Shown in pieces: positions 1 to 56,417 of a stretch of 64,000 bases of DNA (position 1 is its first letter; each line of letters begins with the position of its first letter). The stretch comes from Jiangella alba. Its GTDB lineage: Bacteria > Actinomycetota > Actinomycetes > Jiangellales > Jiangellaceae. The notes under the pieces are model-generated. The model worked only from the letters and a program-made list of their open reading frames with translations. It ran no database searches and was not told where the DNA came from. Location: contig NZ_FNUC01000004.1 of assembly GCF_900106035.1 (NCBI RefSeq), forward strand, positions 1,860,001-1,924,000, read 5' to 3'. A program made the position numbers and the translations under genes.

Positions 1-666
1 GCGACGCCGGAGGACCTGGCCGAGACGGTCAGCGAGGTCGAGGCGCTGGACCGCCGCATCGTCGCCGCCGAGGCCGACGTCCGCGACCGCGACGGGCTGC
101 AGGCCGCCTTCGACGCCGGCGTCGCGCAGCTGGGCGGCGTGGACATCGTGCTGGCCAACGCGGGCATCGCGCCGATGGGCGTCGCCGTGCGGCCGAACGA
201 GTGGGACGACGTCGTGGCGGTCAACCTCACCGGCGTCTACAACACCGTCGAGGTGGCCAAGCAGTCGCTGATCGAGCGCGGCGGCGGCGCGATCGTGCTG
301 ACCAGCTCGACGGCCGGCATCAACGGCATCGGCGGCAGCCAGCCCGGCGGCCTCGGCTACACCGCGTCGAAGCACGGCGTCGTGGGCCTGATGCGCTCGT
401 ACGCGAACGTGCTGGCCGAGCACTCGATCCGGGTGAACACCGTCCACCCGACCGGCGTCAACACGCCGATGGTCGTCAACGACGTCATGCAGGAGTTCCT
501 GGCGCAGGACCCGAGCCTGTCCAACGCGATGGCGAACGCGCTGCCGGTGCCGATGGTCGAGGCCGTCGACATCTCCAACGCGATCCTGTGGCTGGTCTCC
601 GACGACGCCCGCTACGTCACCGGCGTCACGCTGCCCGTCGACGCCGGCTTCACGAACAAGAAGTGA
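1..666 (+). CDS. Mycofactocin-coupled SDR oxidoreductase, 5' truncated by window edge
   Basis: The frame is open from base 1, so the start codon and the Gly-rich nucleotide motif lie outside the window. What is visible is the C-terminal 221 residues of a classical short-chain dehydrogenase: the LANAG motif, a serine in VLTSSTAG, the catalytic pair YTASKHG, and an ending typical of the family (DAGFTNKK). The early segment with ETVSEVEALDRRIVA matches the insert that marks SDRs predicted to use mycofactocin and a non-exchangeable NAD cofactor. Its next neighbour is a paralogue, and mftE and mftF follow in the same operon, which supports that assignment. The substrate, probably an alcohol, is unknown. 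Confidence 0.9.
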   Translation, partial: ATPEDLAETVSEVEALDRRIVAAEADVRDRDGLQAAFDAGVAQLGGVDIVLANAGIAPMGVAVRPNEWDDVVAVNLTGVYNTVEVAKQSLIERGGGAIVLTSSTAGINGIGGSQPGGLGYTASKHGVVGLMRSYANVLAEHSIRVNTVHPTGVNTPMVVNDVMQEFLAQDPSLSNAMANALPVPMVEAVDISNAILWLVSDDARYVTGVTLPVDAGFTNKK

Positions 667-675
667 GGCGCTGAC

Positions 676-1512
676 ATGGCCGGACGGGTCGAGGGCAAGG
701 TCGCGTTCATCACCGGTGCGGCGCGTGGCCAGGGCCGCAGCCACGCGGTGCGGCTGGCGCAGGAGGGCGCCGACATCATCGCCGTCGACATCTGCGACGA
801 CGTGCCCGGACTGCCCTACCCGCCGGCCACCGAGGCGGACCTCGCCGAGACGGTGGCGCAGGTCGAGGCGCTGGACCGGCGCATCGTCGCGTCCAGGACG
901 GACGTGCGCGACCTCGCCGCGCTCCAGGCGGCCGTCGACGACGGCGTCGCGCAGCTGGGCCGGCTGGACATCGTCAGCGCGAACGCGGGCATCGGCACCC
1001 AGCCGCACCCGACGCACGAGCTGACCGAGGACCTCTGGCGCGACATGATCGACATCAACCTCACCGGGGTGTGGCACACCACCAAGGTGGCGATCCCGCG
1101 GATGGTCGAGCAGGGCGACGGCGGGTCGATCGTGCTGACCAGTTCCGCCGCCGGGCTGCAGGCGTACCAGAACATCGCCCACTACGTGTCGGCCAAGCAC
1201 GGCGTCGTCGGGCTGATGCGGACGCTGGCGCTGGAGCTGGCGCCGCACTCGATCCGCGTCAACAGCATCCATCCGACGCAGGTCGACACGTTGATGATCC
1301 AGAACGAGGGCACCTACCGGCTGTTCATGCCGGACGTGGAGAACCCGACCCGCGACGACTTCGCGCCGGCGTCGCAGGCGATGAACGCCCTGCCGATCCC
1401 GTGGGTCGAGCCGGTGGACATCAGCAACGCGCTGCTGTTCCTGGCGTCGGACGAGGCGCGCTACATCACCGGGGTGGCGCTGCCGGTCGACGCCGGCGCC
1501 GTCATCAAGTAG
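676..1512 (+). CDS. Mycofactocin-coupled SDR oxidoreductase
   Basis: Complete 278-aa SDR. It has the nucleotide-binding motif TGAARGQG near residue 15, NAG at about residue 105, SSAAG, and the catalytic YVSAKHG. The long insert after the second beta-alpha unit, ending EALDRRIVASRTDVRD, is the signature of the mycofactocin-dependent SDR subfamily, whose tightly bound NAD is thought to be reoxidised by mycofactocin. It starts at ATG 9 bp after the previous SDR stop, with a GAGGCG Shine-Dalgarno. The two SDRs share long identical stretches and are tandem duplicates. A MoxR gene follows 8 bp downstream. The substrate cannot be read from sequence. Confidence 0.93.
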   Translation: MAGRVEGKVAFITGAARGQGRSHAVRLAQEGADIIAVDICDDVPGLPYPPATEADLAETVAQVEALDRRIVASRTDVRDLAALQAAVDDGVAQLGRLDIVSANAGIGTQPHPTHELTEDLWRDMIDINLTGVWHTTKVAIPRMVEQGDGGSIVLTSSAAGLQAYQNIAHYVSAKHGVVGLMRTLALELAPHSIRVNSIHPTQVDTLMIQNEGTYRLFMPDVENPTRDDFAPASQAMNALPIPWVEPVDISNALLFLASDEARYITGVALPVDAGAVIK

Positions 1513-8045: not shown

Positions 8046-8311
8046 CGATCCTGGTCGACCCGCCGGCCTGGCCCGGCCACGGCCGCCTGTGGTCGCACCT
8101 CGCGTCGGACGAGTCGTTCGAAGAGCTGCACGCGTTCGCGGCGCGGCTGGGGCTGCCCGCCCGCGGCTTCGACGGCGACCACTACGACCTGATGGAGTCG
8201 GACTACCAGCGCGCCATCGACGCCGGTGCGGCCCCTATCAGCAGCCGCGAGCTGGTCACCCGGCTGACCAGAGCCGGGCTGCGCCGCCGCAAGCAGCGCC
8301 GGCGGCCCTGA
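8042..8311 (+). CDS. DUF4031 domain protein
   Basis: 89-aa protein of the DUF4031 family, recognisable from the TILVDPPAWPGHGRLWSHL opening, the central ELHAFAARLG and GFDGDHYDL, and a basic C-terminus (RRRKQRRRP). Function unknown; in actinobacteria it often follows unrelated housekeeping genes. The GTG start overlaps the cutC stop, so its translation depends on cutC. The following 164 bp to the end of the HD gene contain only a weak hairpin (CCGAGG...CCTCGG near 8314-8333) that could end this transcript. Confidence 0.85.
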   Translation: MTILVDPPAWPGHGRLWSHLASDESFEELHAFAARLGLPARGFDGDHYDLMESDYQRAIDAGAAPISSRELVTRLTRAGLRRRKQRRRP

Positions 8312-8475
8312 CCCGAGGCCGCCTGCCCTCGGCGGCGGCGCGGCGTTGGCGCCGATGCCGACAACCGTTCCGGTCGGGTGACGCGGGTGCCAAGAGTTGG
8401 CGCTGGTGTCACCTGGTCCGATGGAGGGTGCGACGATCCGCGCCACGGGCCGGCGGCCGGCTCGTTCCGACGACG

Positions 8476-9102
8476 TCACGTGCCGAAGGCGCGGAGCAGG
8501 ACGAGCTCGGTCCGCAGGTTGTGCCGGGCCCGGGCCTCCCAGCGGCGTCGGCCGTCGTCGGTGTGGAACAGCGCCGGACGGTCCAGCAGACCGGCCAGCA
8601 CGTCGGCCCGGCCGGCGGCGAAGTCGGCGTCGGACACGTGCGCGTAGTCGGCCCGGACGGCGGACGCGTAGGCCGCGTAGTCGGACGGTGTGCCCGCCAG
8701 CACGGCGAGGTCGGCGTCGCAGAGCACCGCGCCGTTGCCGTCGCCGGGCGCGGGGTCGTGGCCGGCGGTGAGCAGCACCAGCCGCTCGACCTCGTCGACC
8801 TGCGTTACCGGCCGGCCGAGCGACGTCAGCACCTCGCGGGCCAGCCGTGCGCTGGCCGCTTCGTCGTCGCCCGGGCGGCCGTCGTAGACGGCGTCGTGGA
8901 ACCAGGCGGCGAACCGGACGGCGTCGGGGTCGGCCGCGGCGCCGGCGAGCTCGTCGACCGCGGCCAGGACGGCGGCGAGGTGGCCGGTCGCGTGGTAGTG
9001 ACGGTGCGGCTCGCTCCAGCGGGCCAGCAGGGCGGTCCCCGCCTCGGCCGCCGCGGGGGAGTCGCCGGCCAGCGTGGCCCAGCGCCGCTCGAGATCGTCC
9101 AT
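8476..9102 (-). CDS. Predicted HD-superfamily metal-dependent phosphohydrolase
   Basis: 208 aa, COG4339-like. Ligand motifs are visible: HYHATGH in the N-terminal third, then AAWFHDAVYDG (the HD pair) and a later LLTAGHDP and CDADLA. The substrate is unknown; the family is thought to act on nucleotide-like phosphates. The start is taken at ATG 9102, because the reading frame upstream runs into the promoter region of the divergent MFS gene. It is monocistronic. Confidence 0.82.
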   Translation of the reverse strand: MDDLERRWATLAGDSPAAAEAGTALLARWSEPHRHYHATGHLAAVLAAVDELAGAAADPDAVRFAAWFHDAVYDGRPGDDEAASARLAREVLTSLGRPVTQVDEVERLVLLTAGHDPAPGDGNGAVLCDADLAVLAGTPSDYAAYASAVRADYAHVSDADFAAGRADVLAGLLDRPALFHTDDGRRRWEARARHNLRTELVLLRAFGT

Positions 9103-9198
9103 GGATCCATTCTCGTTGTAGAATGTGCGAAGCACAGGGTTCCGTGCGCGACCTGGTGGTGGGGAGGCGCGCCGCCGAAGCGTTCCTCCGGAGTCCCT

Positions 9199-10446
9199 GT
9201 GTCCCCTCTCGCCTCGTACCGCCGGCTGCTCTCGCTGGCCGGCATTGGGTACGTCGTCGTCGCCTTCCTCGGCCGGCTGCCGCTGGCCATGAGCCAGATG
9301 GGCACGCTGCTGCTGGTGTCCGACGCCACCGGCCGGTACGCCGCCGGTGGCCTGGCCGCCGGCGCGCTGGCCGTCGCCAACGCCGTCGGGGCCCCGCTGG
9401 CCGGTGGCATCGCCGACCGCGTCGGGCAGCGGCCGGTCGTGCTGGCCCAGTCGCTGACGGCGGGCGTCGCGCTCGCCGCGCTGGTCGCGGCCGTGCAGTC
9501 CGACGCGAGCATCCCGGTGCTGGTCGGCGCGGCCGCCGTCGCCGGGTTCACCATGCCGCAGGTCGGCCCGCTGGCCCGGGTGCGCTGGCGGCCCATCACG
9601 CACCGCACCGGCGCCGCGCAGCCGCGGCTGGTCGACGCCGCGTTCTCCTACGAGGGCGCCGCCGACGAGGCGTCGTTCGTGCTCGGACCGGCGCTGGTCG
9701 GCCTCGGCGCCGTGGCGCTGAGCCCGAGCGGCGCGCTGCTGGCCGCGGCCGGCCTGCTGGTGGTGTTCGGCTCCTGGTTCGCGTTGCACTCGACCGCCCG
9801 GCTGACGCACGCGCTGCGGGCGTCGGCGGCCGCGCACGGCACGGCGTTCGTCACCGTGGCCTTCCTGACCCTGTGCCTGGCGCAGCTGCTCATCGGCGTG
9901 ATCTTCGGCGCCACCCAGACCGGTACGACGGCGCTGGCCACGGCCGCGGGCACGCCCGGGATGGCCGGCCTGGTGCACTCCCTGCTCGGCGTGGGCAGCG
10001 TGCTGGCCGGGCTGGCGACCGCCGCGCTGCCGGCGCGGTTCGGCTACGACAAGCGGATCCTGGTGTTCGCCACCGGGCTGGTGGTGCTGTCGGCGCCGCT
10101 GCTGCTGGCTGGGTCGCTGGCCGCACTCGTGCCGGTCGTGCTGGTGCTGGGCCTGGCCGTCGCGCCGTACATGATCAGCGTGTTCGCCGCCGCCGAGCGG
10201 ACGGTGCCGGCCGCCCGCGTCGGCGCCGCGATGACGCTGCTGGCCGGCGCCACGGGCATCGGTTACGCCGTCGGGTCCGGCATCGCGGGCCGGCTGGCCG
10301 ACCTCGGCGGGCACCGGCCCGCGTTCGCCGTCACGGTCACCGCCGCGGCGCTCGCGGTGCTGCTGGCCGTCGTCCGGCTGCGCACCCAGCGCCCGGCGGG
10401 GGACGTCACCACTCCCGATGGGCTGGCAGCAGCGTCCCAGGGTTGA
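9199..10446 (+). CDS. MFS transporter
   Basis: 415-aa membrane protein with about 12 hydrophobic helices. The loop GGIADRVGQRPVV between helices 2 and 3 is the MFS signature. GTG at 9199 is preceded by TCCGGAG; the open frame upstream overlaps the HD gene promoter and is not protein-like. The substrate is unknown, perhaps drug efflux. The 3' end overlaps the convergent alkyl-DHAP-synthase-like gene by 41 bp. Confidence 0.85.
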   Translation: MSPLASYRRLLSLAGIGYVVVAFLGRLPLAMSQMGTLLLVSDATGRYAAGGLAAGALAVANAVGAPLAGGIADRVGQRPVVLAQSLTAGVALAALVAAVQSDASIPVLVGAAAVAGFTMPQVGPLARVRWRPITHRTGAAQPRLVDAAFSYEGAADEASFVLGPALVGLGAVALSPSGALLAAAGLLVVFGSWFALHSTARLTHALRASAAAHGTAFVTVAFLTLCLAQLLIGVIFGATQTGTTALATAAGTPGMAGLVHSLLGVGSVLAGLATAALPARFGYDKRILVFATGLVVLSAPLLLAGSLAALVPVVLVLGLAVAPYMISVFAAAERTVPAARVGAAMTLLAGATGIGYAVGSGIAGRLADLGGHRPAFAVTVTAAALAVLLAVVRLRTQRPAGDVTTPDGLAAASQG

Positions 10447-50307: not shown

Positions 50308-51531
50308 TCAGACGATGAGTCGCGGGCCGGTGTGGTGCAGTGCGCCGATGGCGGCTTCCTGCAGCACGATGTGCCGTGCGACCGGCGCGGACACCTCGCG
50401 CTCGACCATGCGGCGGGCGATCAGCCCGGCCACGACCGGCGCCGCGAACGACGTCCCGGACCAGATCGCGTGCCCGTTGCTGAACCGGGCCGAGGTCTCG
50501 TCGATGTAGTCGTACCGGCCGTTCGGGTAGGGGATGACGGTGCTCTCGCCCGGCGTGTAGGCGTCGACCCAGTAGCCGAAGTTGCTCCACGGCGCCCGGT
50601 AGTCGCCACCGGTGGTGAGCGCGCCGACCGCCGTCACCCAGCTGTACGCCGCCGGCCAGAACGGGACGTCGGTGCCGTGGTTGCCCGCCGCGGCGACGAT
50701 GACCGTCTCCGGGTGCTTGCTCACGACGCGCCGGTAGAGCATGTCGAACGCCTTCGGTGTCGCGCCATGACGCGCGTAGAGACCGGCCTGCACGCTGACG
50801 ACGTCGACGCCCGCGCGGACGACCTTCTCGAGATCCTCCACGATCGCCAGCTCGTCGACCGCGCCGCCGATCAGGCAGTCGCGAACCTCGACCTGGACCG
50901 CCTCGGCGCCGGACACCGCCAGCAGCCGGGCCGTCGTCGCCGTGCCGTGACCCCCGTACGGCCGGATCTCGTCCGTGCCCGGCACGTAGACGTCGTCGTC
51001 GATCTCGTACTTCTTCACCGCCGAGAACCGGCCGAAGCCGGAGTCCTTGGCGACGACGGGCAGGTACCCGGTGTCGACGACGGCGACCTTCGGCCGGCCG
51101 GGACCGACCGGCTCACCGAGCACCGGGATCGGCCCGTAGGTGGGTACGGGCTCGGTGGCCGGGCACATCGACATGTGCACCTGAGCGTCGAGCACGTGGT
51201 TGGGCGCGACGATGCGCTCGTCGCCGAGGATGTCGGCCAGCTTGGCGGCGATCTCCGCCGCGTCGGTGTCCGGGACGTGCAGGACGGCCAGCCCGACCGG
51301 GCCCTCCGTCACCTCGGGGCGATCGATCCGGAGCTGGTCGAACGCCTCGAGCACGGTGTCGAGGTCGCGCTCGTCGCAGATCAGCTGGCCCTGGCGGTAC
51401 AGATACTCGATCGCCGTCTCGTCCCGGTTCCAGCGAGCGGCGAGTTCGAACCCCCGTTCCTTGGTGCGCCGAGCGCTGTTCTCCCGCAGCCGCTCGAACT
51501 CCTGGTGTAGCCGTTCGCGATCAGGTTGCAT
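50308..51531 (-). CDS. Intracellular subtilisin-like (S8) serine protease
   Basis: 407 aa with no signal peptide or membrane segment. The N-terminal ~125 residues are charged and partly helical, and may be a regulatory or adaptor region. Then comes an S8 domain with the full triad Asp153 (VVDTGY), His195 (GGHGTATT) and Ser361 (SGTSFAAP), and AAAGNHGTD around the oxyanion Asn. It is divergent from a TPR-CHAT gene with only 53 bp between starts, suggesting a joint proteolytic pathway. A target or activation partner is not visible. ATG 51531. Confidence 0.88.
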   Translation of the reverse strand: MQPDRERLHQEFERLRENSARRTKERGFELAARWNRDETAIEYLYRQGQLICDERDLDTVLEAFDQLRIDRPEVTEGPVGLAVLHVPDTDAAEIAAKLADILGDERIVAPNHVLDAQVHMSMCPATEPVPTYGPIPVLGEPVGPGRPKVAVVDTGYLPVVAKDSGFGRFSAVKKYEIDDDVYVPGTDEIRPYGGHGTATTARLLAVSGAEAVQVEVRDCLIGGAVDELAIVEDLEKVVRAGVDVVSVQAGLYARHGATPKAFDMLYRRVVSKHPETVIVAAAGNHGTDVPFWPAAYSWVTAVGALTTGGDYRAPWSNFGYWVDAYTPGESTVIPYPNGRYDYIDETSARFSNGHAIWSGTSFAAPVVAGLIARRMVEREVSAPVARHIVLQEAAIGALHHTGPRLIV

Positions 51532-51542
51532 CGGATTCCCCC

Positions 51543-51578
51543 AGACATGATTCGGGCAAACGACTACATGTCTAGCAT
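51543..51578. promoter_or_regulatory. Shared promoter/operator of the subtilisin-CHAT pair
   Basis: The 53-bp region between the two divergent starts holds a perfect 7-bp inverted repeat, AGACATG (51543-51549) and CATGTCT (51567-51573), with a 17-bp spacer. TAGCAT (51573-51578), 6 bp before the CHAT GTG, fits a -10 box for a leaderless mRNA. A dimeric regulator on the repeat would control both genes at once. No regulator is encoded next to them. Confidence 0.55.
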
Positions 51579-51584
51579 CAGGGC

Positions 51585-54191
51585 GTGACCTCGGGAAGCA
51601 CGTCGGCGGCGGTAGCCGCGGATCAGTTGCCCGGGCTGGCGATGTCGAGTCCCGACGAGGCGGCCCGGGCCGCTCGTGCCGTGCTGTCCGGAGCGGCGAC
51701 GCCGGTGGACGAGACGTACGCGTTGCAGGCGCTCGGCATCGTCCAGCGGGAGCGCGGCGAGGTGGGCCGCGCCCTCCGCTCGGTGCGTCGTGGCATCCGG
51801 GTGGGGCGCGAACACGGGCTCGGCGCTCGGGTCACCGATCTGGAGGCCAGTCTCGGCACGGTGCTCGCGCTGGCCGGACGGCGACGGCCGGCGTTCGCGG
51901 CTTTCGACAGCGCACTCGACGGTGCCGAGCCGGCCGAGCGGGCCCGGGTACTCGTGCGCCGAGCGGCGGTCTGCTTCTTCTTCCAGGACCTCGACGGCGC
52001 GCGCCGCGACAGCCACGAGGCGGCCGCGGTTCTGGAACGTCATGACGACCCGGCGTGGGAAGCGCGAGCTCGCAGCAATCTCGCCGGTGCGCTCCTGGGA
52101 CTCGGACGGTTCGCCGAGGCCGACCGCGAGTTCGCCCGCGCGCAGGAGCTGATCGAGTCGACCGGCGAGCGCTATCAAGCGACGATCATCGTGCAGAACA
52201 GGGGCGATTGCGCGCACCGGATGGGGGACCTGCCGCGGGCGCTGCGACTGCTCTATGACGCGCGCCGGCGATATGACGAGCTGGGCGTCGTTCCGCCGGA
52301 GGTGGTGCGCGACCTCGCGGTGGTGCAGTTGGCGGCCGGGCTGACGGAGGACGCGGCGGGGACGGCGGACGAGCTGGTGGCGGTGCTGGACGGCGCCAGG
52401 GACTCCGCGCTGCGCCGGTCCGACGGGTTCATCGCGGCCGCCATCGTGCACCTCGCGGCGGGCAACCCGAGCCGGGCCGCCGACCTGGCCAGAAAGGCGG
52501 CCCGGTCGAGCCGGCGGCAGGGGCACGACGACGCTGAGCGGCACGCGCGGGTGGTGGTGCTGCGGGCGCAGGCGGAGGCCGGCGCCGTCACGAAGCGGCA
52601 TGCCCGGGCGGCGGCCGCGCTGGCGGCGGAGCTGACCGACCGCTACGCCTCCGAGCGCCTCGACGCGCTGGTGCTGGCGGGCCGGCTGGCGTCGGCGACG
52701 GGGCTGCAGGAGCTGGCGGGTGAGGCGCTGCGGACGGCGGCGGCCGGACGCCGCGGCCGTGGGTCGGCGCTGCGCCGCGCCACCGGCTGGTACGCGCAGG
52801 CCCTGCTGGCCGAGTCCGCCGGCGACCGGCGGGCCATGCTGCGCGCCTGCGGCCGCGGCCTGGACGTCCTCGACACGCACGCGCTGTCGCTCGGCGCGAC
52901 GGAGCTGCGGGCCCGCGCGACGGTGCACGGCAGCGACCTCGCGGCGCTCGCGACGCGGCGGGTGGCGGTCGACGGGACGGCGCGAGAGCTGCTGCGGTGG
53001 ACGGAGCGCTGGCGCGGCACGCTGCACTCGCTGCCCTGGCCGGCGGCCCGCCACGACGCCGAGCTGGCCGCCGAGCTGGGCCGGCTGCGCGCCGTCGGCA
53101 GCCTCATCGGCAGCCACGCCGACGAGGCGGAGCGGCGGCGCATCGAGGAACGCATCCGCCGTCACGTGCACGGCCGGGAGACGGCCGGCCCGCGGACCAC
53201 CCGCCGCCGGCTCGACGTCGGCGAGCTGCTCGACGCGCTCGGCGACCGCACGCTGGTCAGCATCGTCGGGCTGCGCGGCGGCCGGTTCCATGCCGTCGTC
53301 GCGCGTGGGGGCCGGTTGAAGCACGTGGTCGCGGGCGACTCCGGCGCCGCGCTGGACGAGGTCGAGTACGCCAAGTTCGCGCTGCGCGGCGCCGCGGTGG
53401 CCGCCGACGCCGTCGCGGGCGTGCTGCTGGCCGCCGCCGAGCCCGGCCTGGCCCGGCTGCAGGAGACGATGCTCGGCCCGGTGGTCCGCGAACTGGGCGA
53501 CGGGCCGGTCGTGCTGGTGCCGCCGTCGACCATGCAGTCGGTGCCGTGGGGCGCGCTGCCCGCGCTGCGGGACCGGGACGTGACGGTGGCGCCGTCGGCG
53601 ACCGCCTGGCTGCGCGCCCGCACCAGCACACCGCCGCCCGACCGGAGCGTCGCGCTGATCGCCGGCGCCGACCTCGCGTCGTCGGGGGCGGAGGTCGGCG
53701 TGCTGGCCGGCGTCTACACCGACGCGACCGTGCTGACCGGCGACGACGCCACCGCCGACGCCGCGCTGGCCGCGTTGGATGGGTCGTGGCTGGCGCACAT
53801 CGGCGCGCACGGCCGCTACCGCGGCGACAACCCGATGTTCTCGTCGCTGGAGCTGGCCGACGGCCCGCTGACGGTGTTCGACATCGAGCGGCTGCAGTCG
53901 CCGCCGTACCGCCTGCTGCTGACGGCGTGCGAGTCCGGCGTCGGCTCGCCCACCGGCGCCGACGAGCTGCTGGGTCTGACGACGTCGCTGTCGGCGCTGG
54001 GCACGGCCGGGCTGCTGGCCACCGTCGTCCCGGTGAGCGACGCCGCGAGCGTCGACCTCAGCCTGGTCGTGCACGAGCGGCTGCGCACCGGCGACGATCT
54101 CGGCGCGGCGCTGCTCGCGGCGCGCCGGGCGGCGGCAGGCGCCCGGGACCGCGCCACCGCGTGGTCGTTCCTCGCCCTCGGCGGTGCATGA
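51585..54191 (+). CDS. TPR-CHAT caspase-like protease
   Basis: 868 aa. Residues ~20-440 are helical TPR-like repeats (AALGRFAEADREFARAQELIE-type units). The C-terminal ~300 residues are a CHAT domain with catalytic His742 (IGAHGRY) and Cys782 (LLLTACESG), preceded by a short linker. CHAT proteases are clan CD relatives of caspases and separase; examples are Csx29 of type III-E CRISPR and gasdermin-linked proteases. The TPR part probably senses or recruits a target. GTG 51585 appears leaderless. Divergent partner: the S8 protease. No gasdermin-like or CRISPR gene is near. Confidence 0.87.
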   Translation: MTSGSTSAAVAADQLPGLAMSSPDEAARAARAVLSGAATPVDETYALQALGIVQRERGEVGRALRSVRRGIRVGREHGLGARVTDLEASLGTVLALAGRRRPAFAAFDSALDGAEPAERARVLVRRAAVCFFFQDLDGARRDSHEAAAVLERHDDPAWEARARSNLAGALLGLGRFAEADREFARAQELIESTGERYQATIIVQNRGDCAHRMGDLPRALRLLYDARRRYDELGVVPPEVVRDLAVVQLAAGLTEDAAGTADELVAVLDGARDSALRRSDGFIAAAIVHLAAGNPSRAADLARKAARSSRRQGHDDAERHARVVVLRAQAEAGAVTKRHARAAAALAAELTDRYASERLDALVLAGRLASATGLQELAGEALRTAAAGRRGRGSALRRATGWYAQALLAESAGDRRAMLRACGRGLDVLDTHALSLGATELRARATVHGSDLAALATRRVAVDGTARELLRWTERWRGTLHSLPWPAARHDAELAAELGRLRAVGSLIGSHADEAERRRIEERIRRHVHGRETAGPRTTRRRLDVGELLDALGDRTLVSIVGLRGGRFHAVVARGGRLKHVVAGDSGAALDEVEYAKFALRGAAVAADAVAGVLLAAAEPGLARLQETMLGPVVRELGDGPVVLVPPSTMQSVPWGALPALRDRDVTVAPSATAWLRARTSTPPPDRSVALIAGADLASSGAEVGVLAGVYTDATVLTGDDATADAALAALDGSWLAHIGAHGRYRGDNPMFSSLELADGPLTVFDIERLQSPPYRLLLTACESGVGSPTGADELLGLTTSLSALGTAGLLATVVPVSDAASVDLSLVVHERLRTGDDLGAALLAARRAAAGARDRATAWSFLALGGA

Positions 54192-55266: not shown

Positions 55267-55641
55267 TCAGAGCACGAGCCGGCGCAGCAGCCGGTCCAGT
55301 TCCGCCGCGGGGTCGTCGGTGAGCCCGGCGTGCACCGGGCCCGGCTGGACGATCGTGCTGCGTGGCGCCGTCAGCCAGCGGAACCGCTCGCCGATCGCCG
55401 TGGCGCCGACCGGGCCGGCCGCCGCCGGGTCGTTGCAGGTGGCCGCGTACGCCTCGACCGCCGCCACGATGGCCGCGACGTCGGCGTCCGGGTCCAGCGC
55501 CCGCAGCCGGTCCGCGTCGACGTGGGTGGCGGCGGCCAGGTAGGCGGCCTTCTGGCTGTAGACGATGACGCCGGCGTTGACGAACTCGGCCCGCTCGACG
55601 CGGGGGACCACGCGCAGGACGGCGTACTCGAACGCGATCAT
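55267..55641 (-). CDS. DUF3037 protein
   Basis: 124 aa. FEYAVLRVVPRVERAEFVNAGV at the N-terminus is the hallmark of DUF3037. The function is unknown, but the family is regularly encoded directly after a HipA-like kinase, as here, where its ATG overlaps the kinase stop by 4 nt. It may be a partner or substrate of that kinase. Confidence 0.85.
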   Translation of the reverse strand: MIAFEYAVLRVVPRVERAEFVNAGVIVYSQKAAYLAAATHVDADRLRALDPDADVAAIVAAVEAYAATCNDPAAAGPVGATAIGERFRWLTAPRSTIVQPGPVHAGLTDDPAAELDRLLRRLVL

Positions 55642-56417
55642 GCGCCGGCCGCCGGCAGCCAGTCGGACGACGCCGCGGCGCGGGCCGCGAGGTGCTCGGC
55701 GTAGACGGCGCGGACGGCGTCGGGCCCGGCGCCGTCCAGCCCGGGGACCTCGGGCAGCCAGTCGTCCGGGACCAGCGCCAGGATCTCGGCCAGCAGCGAC
55801 GGCGTCACGCGCGGCGCCAACTCGGCGTCGACGGCCGGCAGCCGGTCGGCGGCGAACGCCAGCACATGGTCGTCGATCGGGTAGGGACGGACGGCGAACG
55901 CCGGCGCCCCGGGCCAGGTGTGCTGGAACAGCAGCGCCGCGCCGTGGTCGATCGCCCACAGCTGCCCGTGCCACGTCAGCAGGTTCGGGTTGCGCCAGCT
56001 CCGGTCGACGTTGACGGTGAGCGCGTCGAGCCACAGCACCTTCGCCGCGTCGTCGGGGCTCGCCTGCTTGCCGTGGCCGTCGTAGCCGAGCGAGCGGGGC
56101 AGGAAGTCCATGCCGAGGTTCACGCCGACGCTGGCCAGCAGCAGCGCCTGGATCTCCGGGTCGGGTTCGCGCCGCGCGATGGCGTCGTCGAGGTCGACGA
56201 GCACGAGGTCGGGCACCCGGATGTCCAGCCGCCGTGCCAGCTCGCCCACCACGATCTCCGCGACCAGCGTCTTCGGGCCCTGCCCGGCGCCGCGGAACTT
56301 GACGACGTAGGTGCCGAGGTCGTCGCCCTCGACCAGGCCGGGCAGCGACCCGCCCTCGCGCAGCGGCTCGACGTAGCGGACCGCGCGCACGACGGGCAGC
56401 CCCGTGTGCACCGTCAC
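55638..56417 (-). CDS. HipA-like kinase
   Basis: 259 aa. A short HipA-type kinase: YVVKFRGAGQGPK (ATP Lys and P-loop-like segment), LTVNVDRSWRNPNLL (catalytic loop) and LWAIDHGAAL (metal-binding DHG). It lacks the N-terminal HipA subdomain of toxin HipA, and no HipB antitoxin is present. It is paired with DUF3037, so it is probably a signalling kinase, not a classical toxin. GTG 56417; divergent from the cold-shock gene. Confidence 0.8.
   Translation of the reverse strand: MTVHTGLPVVRAVRYVEPLREGGSLPGLVEGDDLGTYVVKFRGAGQGPKTLVAEIVVGELARRLDIRVPDLVLVDLDDAIARREPDPEIQALLLASVGVNLGMDFLPRSLGYDGHGKQASPDDAAKVLWLDALTVNVDRSWRNPNLLTWHGQLWAIDHGAALLFQHTWPGAPAFAVRPYPIDDHVLAFAADRLPAVDAELAPRVTPSLLAEILALVPDDWLPEVPGLDGAGPDAVRAVYAEHLAARAAASSDWLPAAGA

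Follow-up and report, generated by a model that had tools for sequence, protein, structure and literature searches.

The 64,000-nucleotide stretch of the Jiangella alba genome analysed here (contig NZ_FNUC01000004.1, positions 1,860,001 to 1,924,000; hereafter the window) carries genes for two proteases, a subtilisin-like S8 protease and a TPR-CHAT protease, that point away from each other across a 53-bp gap (Table 1). This protease pair is half of a conserved four-gene protease-sigma module, a larger unit than that seen in a preliminary description of the same DNA. The overlooked members are an extracytoplasmic function (ECF) sigma factor and an anti-sigma-like protein, cl5. By analogy with the signalling arm of type III-E CRISPR systems, we favour, with moderate confidence, a model in which the TPR-CHAT protease cleaves cl5 to free the sigma factor, a Craspase-like logic without CRISPR.

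A conserved four-gene protease-sigma module

Conservation of the gene pair was assessed at 80 named loci anchored on CHAT, the best 80 of 318 CHAT relatives in GTDB genomes. An S8 gene lies next to CHAT on the opposite strand in 78 of these loci, which come from Kribbella, Streptomyces, Actinoplanes and others; at the remaining two, L154 and L181, the contig stops before the S8 position. Hence, chance does not account for the gene pair. The preliminary description had treated the two proteases as a unit and this view holds, with an adjacency that reaches far beyond close relatives. The closest named relatives of the window CHAT are from Jiangella (identity up to 96%), and among 60 relatives the pair occurs across the whole genus and in several further families of the class.

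The other two genes were found in the flanks of the same loci (up to 10 kb), with sigma in 65 of the 80 and cl5 in 67. For this annotation, sigma matches above E 1e-30, S8 matches under 60 bits and CHAT matches under 150 bits were dropped or kept apart. The order S8-sigma-cl5 occurs in 45 loci and CHAT-sigma-cl5 in 15; sigma-cl5 is convergent to CHAT in six, and 14 have no cl5 so placed. Nine of these 14 belong to Jiangella's family, where sigma and cl5 stand in tandem at a separate locus, which in the window genome is on a different contig, C3. A SepH gene (E 7e-77) is about 5 kb from sigma-cl5 in the window genome, and adjacent to it in relatives such as G012. In 54 of 65 loci the sigma stop and the first available cl5 start share a 4-bp overlap. 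The sigma factor has Sigma70 regions 2 and 4 without regions 1 and 3, as expected of the ECF class; the protein from the window genome matches TIGR02937 (E 1.4e-19, passing the cut-off), and ECF sigma factors in the PDB are matched at E 7e-13.

A survey of the phylum gave the same picture. We drew 246 genomes evenly and set thresholds of E 1e-30 for CHAT and E 1e-25 for both sigma and S8; the first 3 to 15 candidates were scored in each genome, so absences are soft. Matches were found to cl5 in 19 genomes, CHAT in 28, sigma in 30 and S8 in 56. All 19 cl5-positive genomes, which span 12 families, have CHAT and sigma, and all 28 CHAT-positive genomes have sigma (Fisher p 6e-22 and 7e-35 for co-occurrence, with relatedness ignored). 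The nine CHAT-positive genomes without a cl5 match are all from a single family, f43, and on inspection each has a diverged cl5 next to sigma. Thus, all 28 CHAT-positive genomes carry cl5. Sigma, the diverged cl5, CHAT and S8 share one locus in eight of these f43 genomes; in the ninth, G205, sigma and cl5 are on one contig, and CHAT and S8 on another. S8 was found in 25 of the 28 CHAT-positive genomes, and in one more, G112, on inspection. Among 60 genomes, 24 CHAT places were initially not counted as the module. In 21 of them there is no S8, related sigma or cl5 within the 3 to 19 kb fetched. The other three are diverged or contig-cut copies: G013 has a complete diverged module; at contig ends, G027:C123 keeps CHAT and S8, and G057 keeps CHAT, sigma and cl5.

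Several further features of these loci were observed. An ABC-ATPase family recurs in 11 loci of five genera, and a gene convergent after CHAT, which looks like that of a LuxR-type ATPase regulator (L170 12652-14397 (-) and equivalents), is present in 44 of the 80 loci, 43 from Streptomyces and one from Streptosporangium. Neither was counted as part of the module. Nonomuraea endophytica has a second S8-sigma-cl5 set (L219 3400-5684) about 2 kb from its first module, with no second CHAT over 150 bits at that locus. A leader of about 250 nt upstream of the sigma gene (G000:C3 about 3141090-3141350; L136 about 9090-9350) is nearly invariant in 10 of 12 Jiangella genomes; it contains several GGGGG runs and the inverted repeat TGACGGG...CCCGTCA, it matches no Rfam family, and its fold energy is unremarkable.

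The two proteases and the region between them

The coordinates, lengths and strands of both protease genes are exactly those reported previously, as are the positions of the S8 triad (D153/H195/S361) and the CHAT dyad. In line with the reported lack of export signals, a Kyte-Doolittle scan, run without a dedicated predictor, detected no signal-peptide-like hydrophobic stretch in either protein.

In the TPR-CHAT protein, TPR repeats (Pfam TPR_12, E 5.5e-10) precede a CHAT domain (Pfam CHAT, E 4.3e-23), and H742 and C782 are present in 89 of 89 sequences. The gene is single in the window genome at E 1e-10 or better; all 12 genomes of the genus have it, one copy in 11 and two in G010. Among the 60 PDB matches listed, of 165, the only match to the CHAT domain is a type III-E CHAT protein (E 4e-5), whose chains we take to be Csx29.

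The S8 protease has the Asp-His-Ser triad in a subtilisin fold (Pfam Peptidase_S8, E 2.6e-16), and the active site is retained in 89 of 90 sequences, the single exception being a broken second copy. From residue 47 onward its structure model aligns with unprocessed pro-subtilisins, and the protein therefore looks like a pro-subtilisin-like zymogen. At the junction between pro-domain and catalytic domain, C123 is kept in 81 of 90 and P128 in 86 of 90. S8 appears cytosolic in the class members examined, and its N-terminus is signal-peptide-like at all nine distant loci looked at, where CHAT has no N-terminal or membrane-like hydrophobic stretch. Judged by these N-termini, S8 is apparently cytosolic in the window lineage and exported in distant relatives. 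Several Jiangella genomes (L075, L076, L149-L150) have a tandem second S8 copy, 52-56% identical to the first; it is broken or a remnant in other Jiangella genomes and absent from the window.

The perfect inverted repeat AGACATG-N17-CATGTCT lies inside the gap, and such repeat pairs are expected at 0.01 per window in dinucleotide shuffles. The repeat had been proposed as an operator common to the two genes. An alignment of the gap across 12 Jiangella genomes does not bear this out, since the CHAT-side arm CATGTCT (51567-51573, + strand) is exact in 11 and the S8-side arm AGACATG (51543-51549) is exact in only two, G000 and G004. The conserved arm continues into a TAGCAT box, with 6 nt between this box and the CHAT GTG, and the arm consequently looks like the promoter end of the CHAT gene and not half of an operator. 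A block matching the gap region, TGATGCTAGACAT on the other strand, is present in G018, from another genus of the family.

Table 1. Features of the window and domains of the proteins discussed in the text (nucleotide positions refer to the window)
Feature	Position	Strand	Details
S8 (subtilisin-like) protease gene	50308-51531	-	407 aa
S8 I9-like pro-domain	residues about 41-115		
S8 disordered junction	disorder 119-124		motif C123-P-A-T-E-P128
S8 catalytic domain	residues about 132-407		
Divergent promoter region	51532-51584	.	53 bp; contains the perfect inverted repeat (51543-51573), which is not kept across the genus
TAGCAT	51573-51578	+	probable -10 box; the CHAT transcript would be leaderless, starting at GTG 51585
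TPR-CHAT protease gene	51585-54191	+	868 aa, GTG start
TPR-CHAT domains	CHAT domain 623-865		TPR repeats in N-terminal half; dyad His742/Cys782
cl5 model	helices 2-17 and 23-51; linker 54-59; beta-sandwich 65-151		linker pLDDT below 50
HipA-like kinase gene	55638-56417	-	Pfam HipA_2, E 1.5e-10; adjoins cold-shock gene
tRNA-like gene (ARAGORN)	8294-8387	+	undetermined two-base anticodon; no Rfam tRNA match at gathering score

cl5 as a candidate anti-sigma factor and its possible release by proteolysis

What does cl5 do? The protein has at least 666 homologues at E 0.001 (of 7991 scored); of the 120 listed, the majority lack a functional name. We aligned 66 of these 120 with 10 sequences from the loci. 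The AlphaFold2 model (predicted local distance difference test score, pLDDT, 86.9; predicted template modelling score, pTM, 0.59) places two helices before a linker and a beta-sandwich, and 53 of the 76 aligned proteins match a Pfam carboxypeptidase-regulatory-like domain at E 0.1. Arg58 in the linker is present in all 76; an Arg occupies the matching position in all eight aligned f43 forms and, by eye, in G013. In a Kyte-Doolittle scan for membrane segments, one of the 76 short forms and none of the eight f43 forms scored over 1.8, and the f43 forms have no N-terminal or membrane-like stretch.

The f43 forms carry an extra N-terminal domain that resembles anti-sigma factors. Compared with 14 NF052375 anti-sigma factors, this part gave an hhalign probability of 75%, with E 2.5e-5 for that one comparison of shallow alignments, and below 1% against the sigma and S8 alignments. 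Direct matches to NF052375 are weak and below the cut-off (E 0.012-0.039 in three of six). In Streptomyces and Jiangella, the short cl5 is a putative anti-sigma factor because it shares the remaining, C-terminal part with the f43 forms, and because of the gene overlap and co-occurrence with sigma.

Gene content, conservation, gene overlap, catalytic residues and domain anatomy were established by computation; we infer the anti-sigma function of cl5, CHAT as the cutter, the cleavage and its site, the signal, the regulon and the role of S8. In the model that we propose, the N-terminal helices of cl5 would hold the sigma factor, and the TPR superhelix would read a cytosolic signal and switch on the CHAT protease. 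CHAT would then cleave cl5 within the disordered linker that joins the helices to the beta-sandwich, with a candidate site after the invariant Arg58, and the freed sigma factor would transcribe its regulon. S8, made as a zymogen, would be either one of the pathway's outputs or a second protease acting in it.

Several observations weigh against this model. Neither Pfam nor NCBIfam identifies the short cl5 as an anti-sigma factor, and no alignment is obtained between its profile and the anti-sigma-like domain of the f43 forms (hhalign below 1%). The conservation of Arg58 could have another cause, such as sigma binding, and S8, as a member of the module, could itself be the cutter where it is cytosolic. 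The four genes do not always travel together: the flanks of the protease pair hold neither sigma nor cl5 in Amycolatopsis L171 and the metagenome-assembled genome L155, G014 (75% complete) has both of these genes but no CHAT from this family, G059 and G228 have sigma without this CHAT, and the surroundings of CHAT in G236 and G288 yielded no S8. By-eye inspection revealed no promoter motif common to the two Jiangella loci.

Two alternatives give S8 a larger part. One is the two-protease cascade suggested by the preliminary description, in which CHAT could activate the S8 zymogen by a cut at the pro-domain junction, or S8 could activate CHAT. S8 would then do the work, and the sigma/anti-sigma pair would control only protease expression. 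The zymogen-like structure, the largely conserved motif at the disordered junction and a divergent promoter region common to both genes in 78 of 80 loci are consistent with such a cascade. However, subtilisins usually process themselves, the junction motif of the window S8 is unlike the cl5 linker, and in two S8 proteins from family f41 hexapeptide repeats replace the motif. Moreover, at the distant loci S8 has a signal-peptide-like N-terminus and CHAT there has none, which weakens the cascade as a general scheme. With an S8 that is cytosolic in the window lineage and looks exported in distant ones, a cascade from CHAT to S8 is just one of the possibilities, and we consider it unlikely. The f41 repeats themselves (NPAYQA or NPGYQG; L237 5847-5981 and L238) form, in L237, an array of 7.5 copies of an 18-nt unit. 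We think it rather improbable that S8 and not CHAT destroys the anti-sigma factor, with CHAT acting on S8 or on other targets. S8, sigma and cl5 are co-directional, with CHAT divergent, in the 45 loci of the commonest order (Streptomyces and some others), and S8 looks cytosolic in the class members examined. Yet sigma and cl5 are downstream of CHAT instead in 15 loci, distant lineages in which S8 looks exported still keep sigma, cl5 and CHAT, and G236 and G288, where the CHAT locus yielded no S8, also retain these three genes.

A role in defence was suggested by the preliminary description. CHAT proteins have defence roles in other systems, and one could imagine an anti-phage or cell-death system in which CHAT and S8 are executioners and sigma contributes a response at the level of transcription, an arrangement that has been suggested for some caspase-centred conflict systems. 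PADLOC reports a generic subtilase match for S8 (E 2.5e-6), and the HipA-like kinase gene of Table 1 is found 1.4 kb past CHAT. Against this, PADLOC has no model for this CHAT, the region is syntenic in the family and CHAT is found throughout the genus, almost always as one copy. Furthermore, the nine window neighbours that were scanned are mostly ordinary metabolic or regulatory genes, across genera no variable effector gene recurs beside CHAT, and a pattern search of IMG/VR found no relative. Plasmid and phage records yielded only partial matches, in two plasmid records and one phage record. No gasdermin gene was detected among the nine neighbours with Pfam, which bacterial gasdermins may escape. 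We found no positive support for phage defence, given the syntenic position, the single CHAT and the lack of an IMG/VR relative, and a defence or cell-death function seems very unlikely.

Relation to known systems and implications

The TPR-CHAT cleavage of cl5 that we favour resembles the Craspase signalling arm of type III-E systems (Csx29 TPR-CHAT, Csx30 and CASP-sigma/RpoE), in which Csx29 cuts Csx30, a protein that binds and inhibits an ECF sigma factor (PMC10028731, PMC9729208). The likeness is in the combination of a TPR-CHAT protease with sigma-binding-protein logic, and the module may work like that arm. In contrast to type III-E, neither Cas7-11, a crRNA nor a CRISPR array is seen, S8 stands where type III-E has Csx31, and the module is chromosomal and widespread in Actinomycetota. 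Window positions 40001-64000 contain no close direct-repeat array and only one imperfect two-copy repeat, and the nine neighbours have unrelated Pfam domains or none, with no cas-like gene among them. Hence, this is not a type III-E system. Csx30 chains exist in the PDB; the cl5 profile has four PDB matches at E 5, none named Csx30, and the fold comparison of cl5 covered the beta-sandwich only.

Other systems have parts in common with the module. Caspase systems with ECF sigma factors have been predicted (Kaur et al. 2021, PMC8195603), and the EACC2 conflict systems described there also place a caspase-clan protease, an ECF sigma factor and a TPR domain in one neighbourhood. The partners in those systems are EACC2 and DUF1822 proteins, whose C-terminal domains are variable, whereas the four genes here vary mainly in the N-terminus of cl5 and in the N-terminus and junction of S8. 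A Pfam scan of the nine neighbours at E 1e-5, without a search aimed at these models, found no EACC2, TRADD-N or DUF1822. RseA-DegS and RsiW are similar in that a sigma gene overlaps an anti-sigma-like gene and in the proteolytic release proposed here. However, RseA is a membrane-bound protein that membrane proteases cleave (PMC8103513), whereas cl5 has no clear membrane segment and carries a beta-sandwich. IteS, an S8 family anti-phage peptidase in NCBIfam, matches the S8 protease weakly (E 0.0028), with a score of 16 against a cut-off of 900. The known IteS system has an ATPase partner, and none is seen among the conserved neighbours here.

Our full-text literature search found no description of the four-gene unit. 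As far as the literature searched shows, the rare type III-E CRISPR systems are the only experimentally established case of a caspase-like protease signalling in the cytosol to a sigma factor. It is tempting to speculate, and we do so tentatively, that Actinomycetota have a widespread, chromosomal and CRISPR-free counterpart of the Craspase arm, in which a cytosolic separase/caspase-like TPR-CHAT protease cleaves a soluble anti-sigma factor after a single invariant Arg and so frees an ECF sigma factor. A single-residue prediction results, that of Arg58 in cl5. The proposal would assign a pathway to many genes that are currently annotated as hypothetical, S8 family or CHAT domain protein, and a standing version on the chromosomes of Streptomyces and many related bacteria (318 CHAT relatives) would provide a tractable model. 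It would also suggest an origin for the CRISPR arm: if true, type III-E CRISPR took over a pre-existing protease-sigma pathway, with Cas7-11 replacing the native sensor.

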